The position numbers and the translations under genes were made by a program. From Pseudorhodoferax sp. Leaf274 (GTDB taxonomy: Bacteria; Pseudomonadota; Gammaproteobacteria; Burkholderiales; Burkholderiaceae_C), in NCBI RefSeq assembly GCF_001422445.1, contig NZ_LMNA01000005.1:62001-126000 (forward strand): a stretch of DNA of 64,000 nucleotides, written 5' to 3'. Shown here in pieces: positions 14,547 to 59,692 of the stretch. Position 1 is the first letter of the stretch. Every line of letters begins with the position of its first letter. The notes beneath the pieces are model-generated. The model was not told the DNA's origin and did no database searches. It worked only from the letters and a program-made list of their open reading frames with translations.

Positions 14547-15047
14547 ATGCGACGATTGAACGTGAACGGTGTGCAACGCGAGGTCGATGTCGAGGACGAC
14601 ACGCCTCTCCTGTGGGTGCTGCGCGAGCAGCTCGGCCTGACCGGCACCAAGTACGGCTGCGGCATCGCGGCCTGCGGCGCGTGCACCGTGCACCTGGACG
14701 GCGTGCCCACGCGCAGCTGCGTGCGGCCCGTCTCCACGGTCGAGCCGACCGAGAAGATCGTCACCATCGAAGGGCTGTCGCCCGATGGTTCGCACCCGGT
14801 GCAAAAGGCCTGGGTGGCGCTGGATGTGCCGCAGTGCGGCTTCTGCCAGTGCGGCATGGTCATGGCCGCCAGCGCGCTGCTCAAGACCAAGCCCAATCCC
14901 AGCGACCAGGACATCGACGAGGCCATCACCAACATCTGCCGCTGCGGCACCTACAACCGGGTGCGCGCCGCGATCAAGGCCGTTGCCCAGGGCAGCACCA
15001 AGTCCGCCGGGCTGTCGATCCGCCATGTGGACGGGAGCGTGACATGA
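14547..15047 (+). CDS. iorA: isoquinoline 1-oxidoreductase-like small subunit, [2Fe-2S]
   Basis: A 166-residue iron-sulfur subunit of the molybdenum-hydroxylase (xanthine oxidase) family, IorA type. The N-terminal ferredoxin-like cluster site is [17 protein letters not shown] with a later cysteine in TRSC; the C-terminal helical domain carries the second cluster in CGFCQCGM and [11 protein letters not shown]. It passes electrons from the molybdenum site of the large subunit to an external acceptor. The frame starts at 14499, but the ATG at 14547 has AGGAG upstream and gives the family N-terminus. Its stop overlaps the next start (ATGA). There is no FAD subunit gene, as expected for IorAB-type enzymes. 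What is odd is the downstream sox genes. The true substrate is not known. Confidence 0.9.
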
Positions 15048-17218
15048 GCGCCGCCCTCGCGCCCACCCGCCGCCGCTTCATCGGCGGCACCGCAGCCACG
15101 GCCGGCGCGCTGGTCGTCGGCTTCCACATACCCCGCAAGAGCCTGGCGCAGACGCCGCTGCCCGACGAGGTCAACGCCTGGGTGGTCGTCAAACCCGACG
15201 ACACGGTGGTCGTGCGCATCGCGCGCTCCGAGATGGGCCAGGGCACGCTGACCGGCCTGGCGCAGCTGGTCGCCGACGAGCTCGATTGCGACTGGGCCAA
15301 GGTCACGACCGAGTACCCCACGCCCGGCCAGAACCTGGCGCGCCAGCGTGCCTGGGGCAACTTCTCCACCGGCGGCAGCCGCGGCATCCGCGAATCGCAC
15401 GACTACGTGCGCAAGGGCGGCGCCACGGCGCGCGTGATGCTGGTGCAGGCCGCGGCCGACGGCTGGAAGGTGCCGGTGGCCGAATGCCGCGCGGCCAAGA
15501 GCGTCATCACGCACCAGCCGTCGGGCCGCAGCACCACCTACGGCAAGGTGGCCGCAGCCGCCGGCAAGCTCAAGCCGCCGGCGGACGTGCCGCTCAAGGA
15601 CCCCAAGGACTGGCAGCTCATCGGCAAGCGCCTGGCGCGGCTGGACACGGTCGAGAAGGTCACGGGCAAGCAGGTCTACGGCATGGACTTGCAGATGCCC
15701 GGCATGCTGAACGCCGCCATCAAGGCCTGCCCGGTGTTCGGCGGCACGCTCAAGTCCTTCGACGCGGCAGCGGTGGACAAGCGGCGCGGTGTGCTGAAGG
15801 TGCTGCGTGTGGGCGACAACGCCGTCGCCGTCGTGGCCGACACCTGGTGGCGCGCCAAGACCGCGCTGGACGCCCTGCCCGTCGAGTGGGACTTCGGCCA
15901 GCATGCCCAGGCCTCCAGCGCCGGCTTCGCCGAGGTGCTGAAGGCCGGCCTCACGGCGGAGCAGGCCGTGGTGGGCAACAGCAATGGCGACGCCAAGGCC
16001 GCGCTGGCGGGTGCTGCGCGGCGCATCGAGGCCGTCTACAGCTACCCGCACCAGAACCACGCGACCATGGAGACCATGAACGCGACGGCGCGCTGGACGC
16101 CCGAGCGCTGCGAGGTCTGGACGCCCACGCAGAACGGCGAGGCCGCGCTGGCCGCCGCGGCAGAGGCCGCCGGCCTGCCGCCGGCGCAGTGCGAGGTCTA
16201 CAAGATCCACCTGGGCGGGGGATTCGGCCGCCGCGGCGCGGTGCACGACTGGGTGCGCCAGGCGGTCGCGATCGCCAGGCAGATGCCGGGCGTGCCCGTC
16301 AAGATGGTCTGGTCGCGCGAAGAGGACATGCAGCACGGCCTGTACCACCCCATCACGCAGTGCCGCCTGGTGGCCGGGCTGGACGCCCAGGGAGAGCTGC
16401 AGGCGCTGCACATGCGCATCTCGGGCCAGTCCATCGTGGCCGGCATCTTTCCGCAGAACATCAAGGACGGCCGCGACCCCGTGGTGTTCCAGGGCCTCAA
16501 CGCGCCGGGGCCGGAGGCCTCCATCGGCTACAGCGTGCCGCACCTGCTGGTCGACCACGCCATGCGCAACCCGCATGTGCCGCCCGGCTTCTGGCGCGGG
16601 GTGAACCTGAACCAGAACGCGATCTACCTGGAGTCCTTCATCGACGAGATCGCGCACGCCACCAAGCAGGACCCGCTGGCCCTGCGCCGCAAGCTCATGG
16701 CGCAGCACCCCAAGCACCTGGCCGTGCTCAACGCCGTGGCCGAGCGCGTGGGTTGGGACAAGCCGGCACCGGCCGGCCGCTTTCGCGGCCTGGCGCAGAC
16801 CATGGGTTTCGGCAGCTACGTGGCGGCCTGCGCCGAGGTGTCGGTCAACAACGACGGCCAGCTCAAGGTGCACCGCATCGTGGCCGCCACCGACCCGGGC
16901 TACGCCGTCAACCCGCAGCAGATCGAGGCCCAGGTCGAGGGCTCGTTCGCCTATGGCCTGTCGGCCGCGCTGTATGGCGAATGCACGGTGAAGGACGGGC
17001 GCATCGAGCAGGACAACTTCGCCACCTACCCGGTGCTGAAGATGGACGAGATGCCGGCGGTGGAGACCGTGATCGTGCCCTCGGGCGGCTTCTGGGGCGG
17101 TGTGGGCGAGCCGACCATCGCCGTGGCGGCGCCGGCCGTGCTCAACGCCATCTTCGCGGCCACGGGCAAGCGCATCCGCACGCTGCCGCTCAAGAACCAC
17201 GACCTCAAGAAGGCCTGA
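15044..17218 (+). CDS. iorB: isoquinoline 1-oxidoreductase-like large subunit, molybdopterin-binding
   Basis: A 724-residue molybdenum cofactor-binding subunit of the xanthine oxidase family. It starts with a twin-arginine signal ([20 protein letters not shown]), so the folded holoenzyme is probably exported to the periplasm, typical of IorB. Cofactor regions include [19 protein letters not shown], the [16 protein letters not shown] segment, [20 protein letters not shown], and near the end the [20 protein letters not shown] motif holding the conserved glutamate. Members oxidise N-heterocycles or aldehydes with water as oxygen donor. It overlaps iorA by four bases and soxX by one (TGATG), so it belongs to one transcript with soxXYZA. 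Assignment to the family is firm; the substrate is not, and the sox context makes an unusual one possible. Confidence 0.9.
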
Positions 17219-17670
17219 TGCGCGGTCCGGCGTGCGCCCTGCTGTGGCTGCTGCTGCAGGCCGGCCCCGCGGCCGCGCAGCCGCTGGCGCCCTACCAGGT
17301 GCAGGGCGACGCCATCGCGGCGCCGCTGGCGGGCCTGGCGGGCGATGCCGCGCGAGGCCGCGCCATCGTCGCCAGCCGGCAGCAGGGGCTGTGCCTGCTG
17401 TGCCATGGCGCGCCCATCCCCGAAGAGCGCTTCCAGGGCGACCTGGCGCCCCACCTGGCCGGCGCCGGCGCACGCTTCAGCACCGGCCAGCTGCGGCTGC
17501 GGCTGGTGGAGCCGCAGCGGCTGGCGCCCGGCACCCTGATGCCGGCCTACTACCGCACCGAAGGCCTGCAGCAGGTGGGCGCCGCATGGCGCGGCAAGCC
17601 GCTGCTGGACGCGCAGCAGATCGAGGATGTGGTGGCCTACCTCTCCGGCCTCAAGGAGCCTGCCCCGTGA
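17218..17670 (+). CDS. soxX: sulfur oxidation c-type cytochrome SoxX
   Basis: A 150-residue periplasmic monohaem cytochrome c of the SoxX type. Residues 1 to about 20 are a Sec signal (CALLWLLLQAGPAAAQ). The haem site is CLLCH (DNA near 17393-17407), with the distal methionine in GTLMPAYYRTEGL, a segment typical of SoxX; the end, DVVAYLSGL, is also typical. With SoxA it forms SoxAX, which conjugates thiosulfate to the SoxYZ carrier and releases two electrons to c-type cytochromes. The ATG overlaps the iorB stop by one base and its own stop overlaps the soxY GTG. It could instead serve as the electron acceptor of IorAB, which is inference. Confidence 0.87.
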   Translation: MRGPACALLWLLLQAGPAAAQPLAPYQVQGDAIAAPLAGLAGDAARGRAIVASRQQGLCLLCHGAPIPEERFQGDLAPHLAGAGARFSTGQLRLRLVEPQRLAPGTLMPAYYRTEGLQQVGAAWRGKPLLDAQQIEDVVAYLSGLKEPAP

Positions 17671-18116
17671 ACGCTTTCGACCCGCAACGCCGCCATGCCC
17701 TCGTGCTGGGCACGGGCCTGGCCGCCAGCCTGGTGGTGCGCCAGGGCAGCGCCGCCACCGGCGACCTGGCGGCCGCCATCGCTGCCTTCACGGGGGGCCG
17801 CACGCCGCAGCCCGGCCGTGTGCGGCTGGACATCTCCACGCTGGTGGAAAACGGCAACGCGGTGCCGGTCACGCTGTCGGTGGACGACGGCCTGCCACTG
17901 CCGCAGCTGCGCAGCCTGGCCCTGTTCAACGAACGCAACCCGCAGCGCGACGTGGCGCGCTTTCGCTTCGGCCCTGCGGCCGGCCGGGCCTGGGCCGCCA
18001 CGCGCATCCGGCTGGCCACTTCGCAGAAGCTCGTGGCGGTGGCGCTGCTGGAGGATGGTTCGGCCTTCTCGCACACCGTGGACGTGGTGGTCACGCTGGC
18101 CGCCTGCATCGAATAG
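17667..18116 (+). CDS. soxY: thiosulfate oxidation carrier protein SoxY, atypical C-terminus
   Basis: A 149-residue protein with a twin-arginine leader (QRRHALVLGTGLAASL) and a SoxY Ig-like fold (RVRLDISTLVENGNAVPVTL, LFNERNPQRDVARFRFGP). SoxY carries the sulfur substrate on a cysteine at the end of a flexible C-terminal GGCGG arm. Here the protein ends in VVVTLAACIE: the cysteine is present three residues from the end, but the flanking glycines are replaced by Ala-Ala and Ile-Glu. The start is GTG, inside the soxX stop (GTGA), and gives the family N-terminus. It is followed after 21 bases by soxZ, its usual heterodimer partner. Identity is well supported by the signal, fold and neighbours; activity as a canonical sulfur carrier is uncertain. 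Confidence 0.85.
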   Translation: MNAFDPQRRHALVLGTGLAASLVVRQGSAATGDLAAAIAAFTGGRTPQPGRVRLDISTLVENGNAVPVTLSVDDGLPLPQLRSLALFNERNPQRDVARFRFGPAAGRAWAATRIRLATSQKLVAVALLEDGSAFSHTVDVVVTLAACIE

Positions 18117-18137
18117 GTGCCGCAAACAGGAGCCCGC

Positions 18138-18458
18138 ATGGCACGTACCCTGATCCACCTGCCGCCCACCGTGCGCCGCGGCGAGCCCTTCGAGGTGCGC
18201 ACCACCATCGCCCATCCGATGGAAACCGGCTACCGGCCCGACGAGAACGGCCGCGTGCTGCCGCGCGACATCGTCACGCGCCTGCAGTGCACGCTGGACG
18301 GGGCGCTGGTGTTCGGCGCCGACCTGTTCCCCGCCATCGCCGCCAACCCCTATGTGGCCTTCCTGGTGCGCGCCGAGCGCAGCGGCGAGCTGCGCATCAC
18401 CTGGGAAGGCGACAACGGCTTCGCGCAGGCCGAGACGGTCGCCGTGCGCGTCGAATGA
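18138..18458 (+). CDS. soxZ: thiosulfate oxidation carrier complex protein SoxZ
   Basis: A 106-residue SoxZ. Family marks are RTLIHLPPTVRRGEPFEVRT, the IAHPMETGYRPDENGRVLPR segment and the closing TWEGDNGFAQAE. It has no signal peptide, as usual: SoxZ is carried through the Tat system bound to SoxY. SoxYZ carries sulfur intermediates between Sox enzymes in the periplasm. The ATG at 18138 follows ACAGGAG at good spacing; an upstream start at 18117 would add seven residues. Its stop overlaps the soxA start (ATGA). Confidence 0.92.
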   Translation: MARTLIHLPPTVRRGEPFEVRTTIAHPMETGYRPDENGRVLPRDIVTRLQCTLDGALVFGADLFPAIAANPYVAFLVRAERSGELRITWEGDNGFAQAETVAVRVE

Positions 18459-19204
18459 AGGCACTGGCCGCGCTGCTGCTGGTGTGGGCGCCAGTGGGCG
18501 CGCAGACAGCGCGTTCGGGCCTGGACTTCATGGGCCCGGCCACCCAGGCCATGCAACGCGACGACAGCCAGAACCCGGCCATGCTGTGGCTGCACGAAGG
18601 CCAGGCGCTGTGGCAGCGGCCCGAGGGCCGTGCGCAGCAGTCGTGCCAGTCCTGCCATGGCGATGCCGCCCAGGCGATGCGCGGCGTGGCCACGCGCTAT
18701 CCGGCCTTCGACACCGCCAGCCAGGGGCCGCTCAACCTGTCGCAGCGCATCCTGCAATGCCGCGTGCAGCACCAGCAGGCTGCGCCCTGGGCGCCAGAGA
18801 GCGCGCCCTTGCTGAGCCTGGAGACCTATGTCGCCCAGCAGTCGCGCGGCTTGCCCATCGCGCCGCCCGACGATGCGCGGCTGGCGCCCTTCACGGCGCG
18901 CGGCCAGGCGGCCTATGCACGCCGCATCGGCCAGATCGACATGTCCTGCGCCCAATGCCACGACCAGGCCTGGGACCGCAAGCTGGCGGGCAACCCCATC
19001 ACGCAGGGCCAGGCCACCGGCTATCCGATCTACCGGCTGGAATGGCAGGGCATGGGCTCGCTGCAACGCCGGCTGCGCAACTGCATGACCGGGGTGCGCG
19101 CGCAGGCCCCGCCGTTCGGCGCCGCCGAACTCGTGGAACTGGAGCTCTACCTGGCCCAGCGCGCGCGTGGCCTGCCGCTGGAGACACCGGCCGTGCGGCC
19201 CTGA
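18455..19204 (+). CDS. soxA: sulfur oxidation c-type cytochrome SoxA, dihaem type
   Basis: A 249-residue periplasmic cytochrome, partner of SoxX. A short Sec signal (LAALLLVWAPVGAQ) precedes two haem c sites, CQSCH (about residue 64) and CAQCH (about residue 167), so this is the dihaem form. The segment RNCMTGVRAQ near residue 210 holds the cysteine that serves as active-site haem ligand and is modified to a persulfide in characterised SoxA. PLNLSQRILQCRVQHQQ between the haems is also family-typical. SoxAX starts the Sox cycle by linking thiosulfate to SoxY. It overlaps soxZ by four bases and ends the six-gene operon; neither soxB nor soxCD follows. Confidence 0.92.
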   Translation: MKALAALLLVWAPVGAQTARSGLDFMGPATQAMQRDDSQNPAMLWLHEGQALWQRPEGRAQQSCQSCHGDAAQAMRGVATRYPAFDTASQGPLNLSQRILQCRVQHQQAAPWAPESAPLLSLETYVAQQSRGLPIAPPDDARLAPFTARGQAAYARRIGQIDMSCAQCHDQAWDRKLAGNPITQGQATGYPIYRLEWQGMGSLQRRLRNCMTGVRAQAPPFGAAELVELELYLAQRARGLPLETPAVRP

Positions 19205-57264: not shown

Positions 57265-58464
57265 TCACTTCCAGAGTGCGCACTTGGACTCGGCCTTGGT
57301 CGTGAAGACCTCGTCGCCCTTGAGACGCGCCACGACCTTGTAGTAGTCCCAGGGCTGCGTGGACTCGGCCGGCGTCTTCACCTGCATGAGGTACATGTCG
57401 TGCACGAAGCGGCCGTCCGGCCGCACCACGCCCTTGGCGTAGAAGTCGTCGATCGGGGTCTTCTTGATGTACTCCATGACCTTGTCGGCATCCAGCGTCT
57501 TGGTCGCCTGCACCGCCTTGAGGTAGGTCGTCGCGGCGGAGTAGTTCGCGGCCTGGATGTCGGTCGGCATGCGCTTGGTCTTCTCGAAGAACCGCTTGCC
57601 GAAGGCGCGCGTCTTGTCGTCCAGGTTCCAGTCCCAGCTGGTGGTGAGCAGCAAGCCGGAGGTGCTCTTCAGGCCCAGGCTGTGCACGTCGGTCACGAAC
57701 ACCAGCAGGCCGACCATCTTCATGGTCTTGTCAATGCCGAACTCCTTGGCCGCCTTCAGCGCGTTCTGCGTGTCGCCACCGGCGTTGGCCAGCGCCAGCA
57801 CCTGGGCCTTGGAGTTCTGCGCCTGCAGCAGGAAGGACGAGAAGTCCGAGGCATTCAGCGGATGCTTGACGCTGCCGAGCACGGTGCCGCCCTTCTCCTT
57901 GACGACCCTGGACGCGTCGGCTTCCAGCGCCGCGCCGAACGCATAGTCGGCGGTCAGGAAGAACCAGTTCTTGTCGCCGCGCGCGATCACCGCGCTGCCC
58001 GTGCCCTTGGCCAGCGCCACGGTGTCGTAGGCGTAGTGCACGGTGTAGGGGCTGCACTGCTCGTTGGTCAGTGCCGAGCTGCCAGCGCCGTTGACGATGT
58101 AGACGCGCTTTTTCTCCTGCGCCACCTTGGCCATGGCCAGGCCGGCCGACGAGGTGGTCCCGCCCACCAGCATCGACAGGTTCTGCGTGTCCATCCACTC
58201 GCGCGCCTTGCTGGCGGCGATGTCGGCCTTGTTCTGGTGGTCGGCCGACAGCAGTTCGATCGGCAGGCCGTTGACCTTGCCGCCGAAGTCGTCGATGGCC
58301 ATCTGGATCGCGGTCGCGCCGTTCTTGCCGTCCACGTCGGCGTACAGGCTGGACATGTCGGTGATGAAGCCGATGCGGACCTTGTCCTGGGCCTGGGCCT
58401 GCACCGCGCCGGTGGCGAGCAAGGTGGCGAACATCAGGGCGGAGAGCGGGAACTTGGCGGTCAT
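57265..58464 (-). CDS. ABC transporter substrate-binding protein, LivK-like (copy 1)
   Basis: A 399-residue periplasmic binding protein, type I fold (Peripla_BP_6). Signal peptide: LSALMFATLLATGAVQAQA. Mature features: VRIGFITDMSSLYADVDGKN, ELLSADHQNKADIAASKARE, VGGTTSSAGLAMAKVAQEKK, NGAGSSALTNEQCSPYTVHY and a final TKAESKCALWK. It is a paralogue of the gene at 58505-59692 and clearly derived from a tandem duplication. It captures the ligand for LivH/LivM. Similar proteins in Burkholderiales bind aromatic acids as well as amino acids, so the ligand is open. The ATG at 58464 is chosen for the signal peptide. Confidence 0.92.
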   Translation of the reverse strand: MTAKFPLSALMFATLLATGAVQAQAQDKVRIGFITDMSSLYADVDGKNGATAIQMAIDDFGGKVNGLPIELLSADHQNKADIAASKAREWMDTQNLSMLVGGTTSSAGLAMAKVAQEKKRVYIVNGAGSSALTNEQCSPYTVHYAYDTVALAKGTGSAVIARGDKNWFFLTADYAFGAALEADASRVVKEKGGTVLGSVKHPLNASDFSSFLLQAQNSKAQVLALANAGGDTQNALKAAKEFGIDKTMKMVGLLVFVTDVHSLGLKSTSGLLLTTSWDWNLDDKTRAFGKRFFEKTKRMPTDIQAANYSAATTYLKAVQATKTLDADKVMEYIKKTPIDDFYAKGVVRPDGRFVHDMYLMQVKTPAESTQPWDYYKVVARLKGDEVFTTKAESKCALWK

Positions 58465-58504: not shown

Positions 58505-59692
58505 TCACTTCCAGAGCGCGCACTTGGTCTCGGCCTTGGTGGTGAACACCTGCTCACCCGGCAGCGTCTTGACGACCTTCAGGTAGTCCCAGGGCTTGGT
58601 GGATTCCTTGGGGGACTTCACCTCGACCAGGTACATGTCGTGCACGAAACGGCCGTCGGCACGGATCTGGCCCTTGCCGAAGAAGTCGTTGACGGGCGTC
58701 TTCTTGAGCTGCTCCATGACCTTGTCGGCATCCACGCTGCCGGCGGCCTGCACGGCCTTCAGGTAGGTCGTGGTGGCGGAATAGTCGGCGGCCTGCACGT
58801 CGGTGGGCATGCGCTTGGCCTTGTCGAAGAACTTCTTGGCGAAGGCGCGCGTCTGGTCGTTCAAGTCCCAGTACCAGCTGGTGGTGTGCAGCAGGCCTTC
58901 GGTGTTGCGCAGGCCCAGGCTGTGCACGTCCGACAGGAACACCAGCAGGCCCGCGGTCTTCATGGTCTTGTTGATGCCGAACTCGCGCGCCGCCTTGATC
59001 GAGTTGATGGTGTCGCCACCGGCGTTCGCCAGGCCGAGGATCTGCGCCTTGGAGTTCTGCGCCTGCAGCAGGAAGGACGAGAAGTCCGATGCGTTCAGCG
59101 GCGTGCGCACCGCGCCGACCACCGTGCCGCCCTTCTCCTTGACGACGCGCGTGGTGTCGGCCTCCAGCGCGTGGCCGAAGGCGTAGTCGGCCGTCAGGAA
59201 GAACCAGCTCTTGCCGCCGGCATCGACCACCGCGGCGCCCGTGCCCTTGGCCAGCGCCACGGTGTCGTAGGCGTAGTGCACCGTGTAGGGGCTGCACTGC
59301 TCGTTGGTCAGCGCCGAAGTGGCGGCGCCGTTGTTGAAGTAGACGCGCTTCTTCTCCTGCGCCACCTTGGCCATGGCCAGCGCGGTGCCCGAGTTGGTGC
59401 CGCCGAACACCATGGTGAGGCCGGCCGTGTCGATCCACTCGCGTGCCTTGCTGGCGGCGATGTCGGCCTTGTTCTGGTGGTCGGCCGTCATGAGTTCGAT
59501 GGGCTGGCCCAGCACCTTGCCGCCGAAGTCGTCGATGGCCATCTGGATCGCCATCGCGCCGTTCTTGCCCTCCACGTCGGAGTACAGGCTGGACATGTCG
59601 GTGATCAGGCCGATCTTGACCTGGGCCGCGGCGCCGGTGGCGAAACCTGCGGCGGCGAGCGACAGGCAGAGCGTGGTCAGGGTGCGGTGCAT
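58505..59692 (-). CDS. ABC transporter substrate-binding protein, LivK-like (copy 2)
   Basis: A 395-residue paralogue of the downstream binding protein. Signal peptide: LCLSLAAAGFATGAAAQ. Mature segments mirror copy 1: VKIGLITDMSSLYSDVEGKN, LMTADHQNKADIAASKAREW, FGGTNSGTALAMAKVAQEKK, NNGAATSALTNEQCSPYTVH and TKAETKCALWK. The ligand-facing loop differs (GTNSGT against GTTSSA, and NNGAAT against NGAGSS), so the two may differ in specificity. Order in the operon: livG, livF, this gene, copy 1, livH, livM. It follows livF by 35 bases. Confidence 0.92.
   Translation of the reverse strand: MHRTLTTLCLSLAAAGFATGAAAQVKIGLITDMSSLYSDVEGKNGAMAIQMAIDDFGGKVLGQPIELMTADHQNKADIAASKAREWIDTAGLTMVFGGTNSGTALAMAKVAQEKKRVYFNNGAATSALTNEQCSPYTVHYAYDTVALAKGTGAAVVDAGGKSWFFLTADYAFGHALEADTTRVVKEKGGTVVGAVRTPLNASDFSSFLLQAQNSKAQILGLANAGGDTINSIKAAREFGINKTMKTAGLLVFLSDVHSLGLRNTEGLLHTTSWYWDLNDQTRAFAKKFFDKAKRMPTDVQAADYSATTTYLKAVQAAGSVDADKVMEQLKKTPVNDFFGKGQIRADGRFVHDMYLVEVKSPKESTKPWDYLKVVKTLPGEQVFTTKAETKCALWK

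Follow-up and report, generated by a model that had tools for sequence, protein, structure and literature searches.

Two described systems lie closest to the locus considered here. In the canonical Sox system, as in Paracoccus pantotrophus, SoxX, SoxA, SoxY and SoxZ are accompanied by SoxB and SoxCD, and SoxY ends in a swinging arm with the motif G-G-C-G-G. Isoquinoline 1-oxidoreductase (IorAB) and the solved enzyme 8gy3 pair a [2Fe-2S] small subunit with a molybdenum subunit exported by the twin-arginine translocation (Tat) route. In passages of two published studies, sox genes are read as a sign of thiosulfate or inorganic sulfur oxidation (PMC3308952, PMC10708946). In a 64,000-nucleotide stretch of Pseudorhodoferax sp. 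Leaf274 (contig NZ_LMNA01000005.1, positions 62,001 to 126,000; hereafter the window), elements of both systems stand together in a module of six compact genes, iorA-iorB-soxX-soxY-soxZ-soxA, all on the plus strand and spanning 14547-19204. That a molybdenum hydroxylase might work with SoxYZ and SoxAX had been proposed from the letters of the window (the sequence-only reading), and linkage across genomes and a dedicated IorB clade now lend this general idea strong comparative support. The gene set described in that reading stands; it had missed that SoxY is a paralog, how widely the set is conserved, and the partner FccAB.

SoxX, SoxA, SoxY and SoxZ of the module are homologous to those of the canonical system, and the arm cysteine of SoxY and the active-site cysteine and arginine of SoxA are retained. 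Unlike the canonical system, the module has no SoxB or SoxC, its SoxY arm ends in A-A-C-I-E, and an enzyme of the xanthine oxidase family is added. This enzyme resembles IorAB and 8gy3 in having both a [2Fe-2S] small subunit and a Tat-exported molybdenum subunit. It differs from these enzymes in that no dedicated cytochrome gene accompanies it besides SoxX, SoxA and sometimes FccA, and its IorB forms a clade apart from the unlinked paralogs that we tested.

SoxYZ-type carriers have been placed beside other enzymes in earlier work. In a study with a tree of 1,631 SoxY sequences, divergent SoxY proteins are connected with genes for dimethyl sulfoxide reductase, tetrathionate reductase and alcohol dehydrogenase; its main text does not contain isoquinoline, xanthine, molybd- or aldehyde (PMC11237559). 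The quinoprotein-associated carrier of family TIGR04557 (PP_2677, ped cluster) is, according to a partial text, likewise a carrier of the SoxYZ type, associated with a dehydrogenase that acts on organic compounds in the periplasm; it is a fused SoxYZ with a pyrroloquinoline quinone (PQQ) partner and with SoxH-like and rhodanese neighbours, whereas soxY and soxZ of the module are separate (PMC12997753). Proteins of the module scored 44.4 (SoxY) and 40.4 bits against this family, well under its cut-off of 140. SAR324 genomes carry a flavocytochrome c flanked by soxYZ, with no further sox subunits recovered in two bins; the portion of that paper at hand draws no link to IorAB and mentions isoquinoline 1-oxidoreductase separately (PMC4782131). 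In Polynucleobacter, Pnuc_1154-1157 form a SOX cluster that stands separately; some SOX genes are described there as similar to those of Bradyrhizobium, and the word isoquinoline does not occur in the main text (PMC3308952); our guess is that these genes are soxXYZA of the module type.

What is already known is thus the SoxY paralog, as an NCBI model, and SOX clusters in print that may include this one (PMC3308952, in part). The link between IorAB and SoxXYZA appears to be new: no description of it was found among the literature matches listed, in a search mostly outside subscription journals. A full-text search for AACIE together with SoxY gave no paper, nor did one for the nearest solved enzyme.

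Linkage of iorAB and soxXYZA

Because our gene caller, a simple script, overlooked genes that were recovered by tblastn (for example soxX and soxY in locus L133 and, in a first run, the whole of L094 and L096), linkage counts were taken from tblastn. Among 250 genomes of the family, 131 matched the SoxY model TIGR04487 at E ≤ 1e-10 and 43 scored at least 100 bits, a limit set by eye; these 43 are called module genomes below. Sets in which iorAB and soxXYZA lie tail to tail score less than 100 bits in three genomes (G221, G064 and G029), which are counted among the others in the co-occurrence tests. The examined set comprised 42 of the 43 module genomes (41 fetched loci plus the window, with G156 left out), and iorAB adjoins sox genes in 39 of them. 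The three exceptions are a locus with soxXYZA and no adjacent iorAB (L066), a short contig holding soxYZA only (L085), and a contig that starts at soxX (L088), whose genome has a 70% identical IorB on another contig, at its end.

A search of the phylum beyond the family covered 398 genomes. Nineteen genomes other than that of the window matched TIGR04487 at 150 bits or more, and all six genes are present in each of the 13 loci fetched from these, which score at least 158 bits (six were not fetched). Four loci scoring 137-144 bits are canonical clusters, with G-G-C-G-G arms, soxB and no iorAB (0/4). Among the genomes fetched, four of 1.7-2.1 Mb that belong to the order of the window, by our guess Polynucleobacter, carry the six-gene set.

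For a reciprocal test, an IorB alignment was scanned against named genomes and the best 80 of 576 relatives were taken; they include Burkholderiales and Alphaproteobacteria (Bosea, Microvirga, Belnapia, Roseococcus, Ferrovibrio). Sox genes lie downstream in 73 of these 80, in seven cases after an fcc pair, and a contig end cuts five loci (L140, L143, L158, L176 and L188). At the other two, L121 and L149, about 10 kb downstream of iorB holds no sox genes; the L121 genome has soxXYZA on another contig. This metagenome-assembled genome (MAG), with iorAB of the clade and soxXYZA on two contigs, is titled Bordetella parapertussis, a label that looks wrong for an environmental bin.

The sequence-only reading was to be given up if the gene order proved unique to this strain, and the counts above show that it is not. 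We reject a strain-specific accident, since the gene set recurs across family and phylum and the IorB clade is dedicated to it.

Phylogeny of the linked proteins

The trees are quick ones with support from the Shimodaira-Hasegawa-like approximate likelihood ratio test (SH-aLRT) only, and long branches were flagged, including a stray second IorB-like row of L121. In a tree of 51 IorB sequences, one group (SH-aLRT 99) takes in all 28 with sox linkage, whether ordinary or tail-to-tail, and otherwise contains only the two close relatives from L121 and L149. Around 17 fetched loci of unlinked IorAB paralogs (15 selected and two of the four host-genome paralogs, with L239 on a short contig), tblastn gave no sox or fcc match within about 6 kb, or less at contig ends.

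The hydroxylase and the sulfur proteins might share no more than their regulation and do unrelated jobs in the same niche. None of the analyses points to a shared substrate, and the L121 genome, with IorB and soxXYZA on separate contigs, would suit such a loose association. The dedicated IorB clade argues instead for a direct link, and the combination has been kept across Alphaproteobacteria and Burkholderiales despite changing neighbours, and after a strand rearrangement. We consider co-regulation by itself quite improbable.

In the SoxY tree, 19 canonical, orphan and FccYZ rows split off by a 99% branch, and the module rows do not resolve into a single group. The SoxA tree sets 13 canonical rows apart at 100% (12 from the family of the window and L103), and three other canonical SoxA sequences (L102, L105 and L106) lie near the module SoxA. 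These placements suggest that the module is unlike a broken copy of its relatives' canonical cluster. A rearranged canonical operon, the other outcome that would have counted against the sequence-only reading, is rejected: SoxA and SoxY of the module both branch away from the 12 canonical ones fetched from the family, and the genome has no SoxB or SoxC over the cut-offs.

Protein families and active-site residues

The features of a two-subunit IorAB or aldehyde dehydrogenase are all present, namely a small subunit with two [2Fe-2S] clusters, molybdenum cofactor domains, the glutamate of a GVGEP motif and a Tat signal (TAT_signal_seq 20.1 bits, cut-off 16.7). Each of the eight presumed cluster cysteines of IorA is kept in at least 118 of the 119 aligned rows. 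Glu689 of GVGEP in IorB, which we take to be the catalytic glutamate of the xanthine oxidase family, is kept in 123 of 123. Residues 7-723 of IorB match 8gy3_C, the large subunit of an aldehyde dehydrogenase and the nearest solved relative, at E = 4e-70. This match and the MoCoBD_1/2 domains agree with the earlier assignment of the enzyme to the xanthine oxidase family rather than to the SoxC type.

Both cytochromes score above their equivalog cut-offs, SoxX with 66.8 bits on TIGR04485 (cut-off 61) and SoxA with 220.9 bits on TIGR04484 (cut-off 110). Over most of its length, SoxX matches the cytochrome c chain of 1h31 and the SoxX of 2c1d, and SoxA matches the dihaem chain of 1h31 and the SoxA of 2c1d. 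SoxX has its CxxCH motif in 121 of 122 rows and Met108 in all 122; SoxA has both CxxCH motifs in 118 of 118 rows, and Cys210, Arg206 and Arg215 in 117 of the 118. According to part of a study of TsdA, thiosulfate is contacted by Arg119, which precedes the ligand Cys123 by four residues and is invariant across both TsdA and SoxA (PMC4423706); Arg206 of SoxA was equated with this residue by its spacing to the cysteine only. Retention of the cysteine and of the arginine four residues before it suggests that SoxAX of the module still conjugates an anionic sulfur group.

The top-scoring model for SoxY is TIGR04487 (SoxY_para_1, 'SoxY-related AACIE arm protein'), which has the same arm motif, with 161.4 bits against a cut-off of 172; the model of true SoxY, TIGR04488, gives 81.3 bits against 125. 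Since TIGR04487 outscores TIGR04488, this SoxY is a paralog that NCBI has already set apart from canonical SoxY. Residues 145-149 are A-A-C-I-E in place of the canonical G-G-C-G-G. The arm cysteine, Cys147, is kept in 126 of 127 rows, an acidic residue stands two positions after the last cysteine in 124, and two to seven residues follow that cysteine in 126, compared with two in G-G-C-G-G. Like IorB, SoxA and SoxX, SoxY has a sequence match among solved structures. SoxZ passes the Pfam cut-off for SoxZ and falls slightly under that of TIGR04490 (73.7 bits, cut-off 76). Judged from the alignments, the catalytic residues of the module enzymes are intact.

The sequence-only reading had suggested that the hydroxylase may feed electrons through SoxAX. 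SoxAX could serve only as the electron acceptor of IorAB, replacing a dedicated cytochrome during aldehyde or N-heterocycle oxidation, with SoxYZ as a passenger or thiol buffer. The closest solved relative of IorB being an aldehyde dehydrogenase would agree with this, as would the c-type cytochrome adjacent to at least 5 of the 17 unlinked IorAB loci (with CxxCH motifs counted only in nine genes next to such loci); the one extra cytochrome cluster seen among genes that recur near the linked loci is FccA-like. However, SoxY and SoxZ are retained as regularly as SoxX and SoxA, with the arm cysteine almost invariant; one locus (L087) has soxYZ without soxX and soxA in cis; and the active-site cysteine and arginine of SoxA would seem unneeded for mere electron relay. 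An acceptor role alone is, in our view, unlikely.

Gene layout

The six genes, their positions, their overlaps and the 21-base spacer between soxY and soxZ are as the sequence-only reading had given them (Table 1). Overlaps of 4 bases join iorA to iorB (ATGA), soxX to soxY (GTGA) and soxZ to soxA, and iorB and soxX overlap by 1 base. No sigma-70-type promoter came out of a pattern scan, and its three terminator-like sites all lie on the opposite strand, so it is the gene spacing that points to a single transcript of six genes. According to our gene caller, 93 bases separate the module from spoVR upstream and 125 from the next gene downstream. The upstream neighbours are prkA, a DUF444 gene and spoVR; the downstream one is a small gene with no family match.

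Table 1 Features of the six-gene module in the window.
Feature	Position	Strand	Basis
iorA-type small subunit, two [2Fe-2S] clusters	14547..15047	+	Pfam Fer2_2 96.7 bits, Fer2 38.4
iorB-type molybdenum cofactor subunit, xanthine oxidase family	15044..17218	+	MoCoBD_1/2; Tat signal
soxX, monohaem cytochrome c	17218..17670	+	TIGR04485; 1h31 and 2c1d matches
soxY paralog, AACIE arm	17667..18116	+	TIGR04487 161.4 bits, slightly below cut-off
Codons of the SoxY A-A-C-I-E end, Cys third from end	18099..18113	+	Sequence
soxZ	18138..18458	+	PF08770 88.2 bits, cut-off 25
soxA, dihaem cytochrome c with conserved active-site Cys	18455..19204	+	TIGR04484 220.9 bits

SoxB, SoxC and FccAB

The absence of soxB and soxCD from the operon, noted in the sequence-only reading, holds, and for SoxB and SoxC it extends to the host genome (assembly of 6.7 Mb in 30 contigs, rated 100% complete). 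The best SoxB match in the whole genome has 62.7 bits against a cut-off of 550, and there is no SoxC match (TIGR04555) at E ≤ 1e-100; SoxD was not searched for. A second sox set had been thought worth looking for, and the only further SoxY belongs to the true type; it is encoded on contig C26, in an orphan soxYZ pair, and ends in GGCGA. This pair (L006:9354-10162), in a genome without soxB, adjoins carbonic-anhydrase-like and ruvA/ruvB-like genes (names by eye). Other IorB-like proteins of the host are at most 42% identical to the module IorB. An FccB-type flavoprotein, with a small CxxCH-motif gene beside it, is 60% identical to the module-linked one of L118, which has the domains FCSD_central and FCSD-flav_bind (PF21706 144.2 bits, PF09242 83.4 bits).

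Co-occurrence was assessed over the 250 family genomes with Fisher tests, which treat genomes as independent and ignore shared ancestry; an FccB match was taken at E ≤ 1e-60. FccB is found in 41 of 43 module genomes vs 132 of 207 others (p = 8.5e-6), and among SoxB-lacking genomes in 13/13 vs 38/99 (p = 1.4e-5). For SoxC the difference is not significant (27/43 vs 106/207, p = 0.18). The placement of fccAB around the module varies, with at least three positions. In some Alphaproteobacteria the pair separates iorB from soxX, and in Duganella, Pseudoduganella, Massilia and others it follows soxA; in two Bosea loci it lies downstream on the opposite strand, and in L052 and L053 it is upstream and divergent.

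A dependence on SoxB as a rule is not supported, SoxB being missing from 13 of 43 module genomes in the family and from 4 of the 19 strong-match genomes outside it.

IorAB might take the role of SoxCD, oxidising sulfane sulfur on SoxY, while SoxB encoded elsewhere (or another hydrolase) frees sulfate. The module itself lacks soxCD, and SoxB occurs in 30/43 and 15/19 of the module-type genomes, as such a division of labour would have it. Yet the genomes without SoxB include the host itself, SoxC is also present in more than half of the module genomes, and the xanthine oxidase family is not known to oxidise sulfur. A SoxCD-like role therefore seems distinctly unlikely.

In two loci, a SoxYZ variant stands with FccAB-like genes in another setting. 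In L107 and L108, soxYZ with an arm ending in A-S-G-C-G-M follows these genes, a transporter of the YeeE type and a second flavoprotein resembling that of flavocytochrome c; by eye and by clustering, this would be another SoxYZ variant tied to flavocytochrome c.

Proposed function

We put forward, tentatively and as a reading that may well prove wrong, that the six genes encode a periplasmic module, complete in itself, for the oxidation of a reduced, most likely organic or carbon-bearing sulfur compound on a protein carrier, with IorAB as carbon hydroxylase and SoxAX as loader. Several lines of evidence suggest this: (i) The catalytic residues of SoxAX and the cysteine of SoxY are intact, so that something is probably loaded on the arm. 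(ii) Without SoxB, the known route of sulfate release is unavailable in the host genome. (iii) The co-occurrence of FccAB implies sulfide or sulfane sulfur nearby. (iv) IorAB is by family a carbon hydroxylase and stands with Sox and Fcc proteins, which points to a carbon-bearing sulfur compound, with IorAB acting on its carbon part and Sox and Fcc on its sulfur part. Oxidation of such a compound is the simplest joint reading.

In the scheme that we propose, SoxAX would couple the thiol or another anionic sulfur group of the substrate to the arm cysteine of SoxY. The Tat-exported IorAB would hydroxylate a carbon of the substrate, either while the latter is tethered on SoxYZ or shortly before or after it is loaded. 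Released sulfide or sulfane sulfur would go to FccAB, whose genes adjoin the module in some genomes and lie elsewhere in that of the host, and electrons from SoxAX, IorAB and FccAB would pass to cytochrome c. We infer the substrate class, a target molecule common to IorAB and SoxYZ, the order of the steps and the electron path. According to part of a study of Bradyrhizobium diazoefficiens, which has two soxY genes, soxY1 alone is essential for thiosulfate oxidation (PMC5748708). If soxY2 is of the module type, which is a guess, a different substrate for this other copy would fit.

A bolder version holds that IorAB hydroxylates the substrate during its attachment to the swinging arm of SoxY, that the A-A-C-I-E arm is adapted for entry into IorAB and not into SoxB, and that this is an independent branch of periplasmic sulfur oxidation ending in an organic product instead of sulfate. 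If true, a molybdenum hydroxylase would here act on a sulfur substrate tethered to a protein, but we regard this version as doubtful.

Several observations weigh against a self-contained module acting on a sulfur compound. The nearest solved relative of IorB being an aldehyde dehydrogenase subunit, the substrate could be a sulfur-free aldehyde. No pointer to a substrate, and no transporter or releasing hydrolase, was seen to be conserved with the module, and the neighbours vary by locus. The two halves also occur apart: the L149 MAG has this IorB and no TIGR04487 match at E ≤ 1e-5, and genomes G074 and G083 have the sox part without adjacent iorAB, with no IorB of more than 48% identity found there. 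The missing soxAX of L087 may be covered by a second, full six-gene set (L209) in the same genome, G184. FccB is common without the module (132/207) and is not significantly enriched among SoxB-bearing genomes (28/30 vs 94/108, p = 0.52). Finally, SoxB shows a weak association with the module in the family (30/43 vs 108/207, p = 0.043) and is present in 15 of the 19 strong-match genomes outside it; encoded elsewhere in many module genomes, it may serve the carrier in trans there.

The sulfido ligand of molybdenum is, in the available portion of one source, essential in this enzyme family (PMC3877041), and a SoxYZ-like carrier near PQQ dehydrogenases is discussed, in part of another, as a maturation or protection factor (PMC12997753). 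The Sox part could thus be a maturation or repair device, in which SoxYZ receives sulfane sulfur via FccAB and SoxAX and uses it in the periplasm to renew the labile Mo=S ligand of the exported hydroxylase. An arrangement of iorAB with soxYZ alone in cis does exist (L087), and FccAB co-occurs. Against such repair, the 17 unlinked IorAB loci have no Sox proteins nearby, and XdhC-type maturation occurs in the cytoplasm before export. Chaperones of the XdhC family are, as stated in a passage of PMC2997495, usually required for enzymes of this kind to mature. We give the repair explanation little credence.

The proposed module bears on how sox genes are read. About 1 in 6 of the sampled family genomes (43/250) hold sox genes that belong to this other module, and 13 of these 43 are without SoxB. 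If the link is real, it would represent a widespread, so far unassigned sulfur pathway of soil and freshwater bacteria, and it would extend swinging-arm carriers to another enzyme class. It would also offer a testable function for a second soxY where one copy suffices for thiosulfate oxidation.

Locus variants and neighbouring genes

By the gene caller, the exact six-gene order is present in 94 of 135 loci, and fcc genes stand between iorB and soxX in 13 more; the remaining 28 are interrupted by contig ends, gene-caller faults or real changes. Median intergenic spacings along the set are -4, 12, 1, 3 and -4 bases, with starts as placed by the gene caller.

Among the real changes, the sox part is reduced in L060, where soxX is gone and soxA is a remnant. 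In L126, about 4.7 kb separate soxX from soxYZA. By eye, this region (L126:7467-16751) has a ferredoxin gene, a cytochrome-oxidase-subunit-like gene and genes for secreted proteins in the insert, and a Rieske dioxygenase-like set upstream of iorA. L087 carries two iorAB sets with soxYZ only; its segment 8491-15348 also carries a binding-protein-like gene, and both L087 and L209 come from G184.

In the tail-to-tail sister group (L209-L213), all six genes are present, with iorAB and soxXYZA on opposite strands. SoxY ends in S-A-C-F-D-A-S in four of these loci and in T-A-C-F-D-E-T in L209; a sister-group SoxY with the former ending scores only 60 on TIGR04487. Retention of the six genes through this strand rearrangement argues for function rather than inherited order.

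Beyond the core genes and FccAB, no neighbour cluster occurs in more than 14 of the 135 loci when three genes on each side are considered. Genes for tripartite-transporter receptors, recognised by eye, are found at 7 of the 135 loci and also at L087 and L209-L212. They would suit an organic acid; such genes are very common in these bacteria, and we gave them no weight.

Elsewhere in the window, two adjacent genes for binding proteins of the branched-chain amino acid type of ATP-binding cassette transporter (57265-58464 and 58505-59692) have similar starts and look, by eye, like a duplication.

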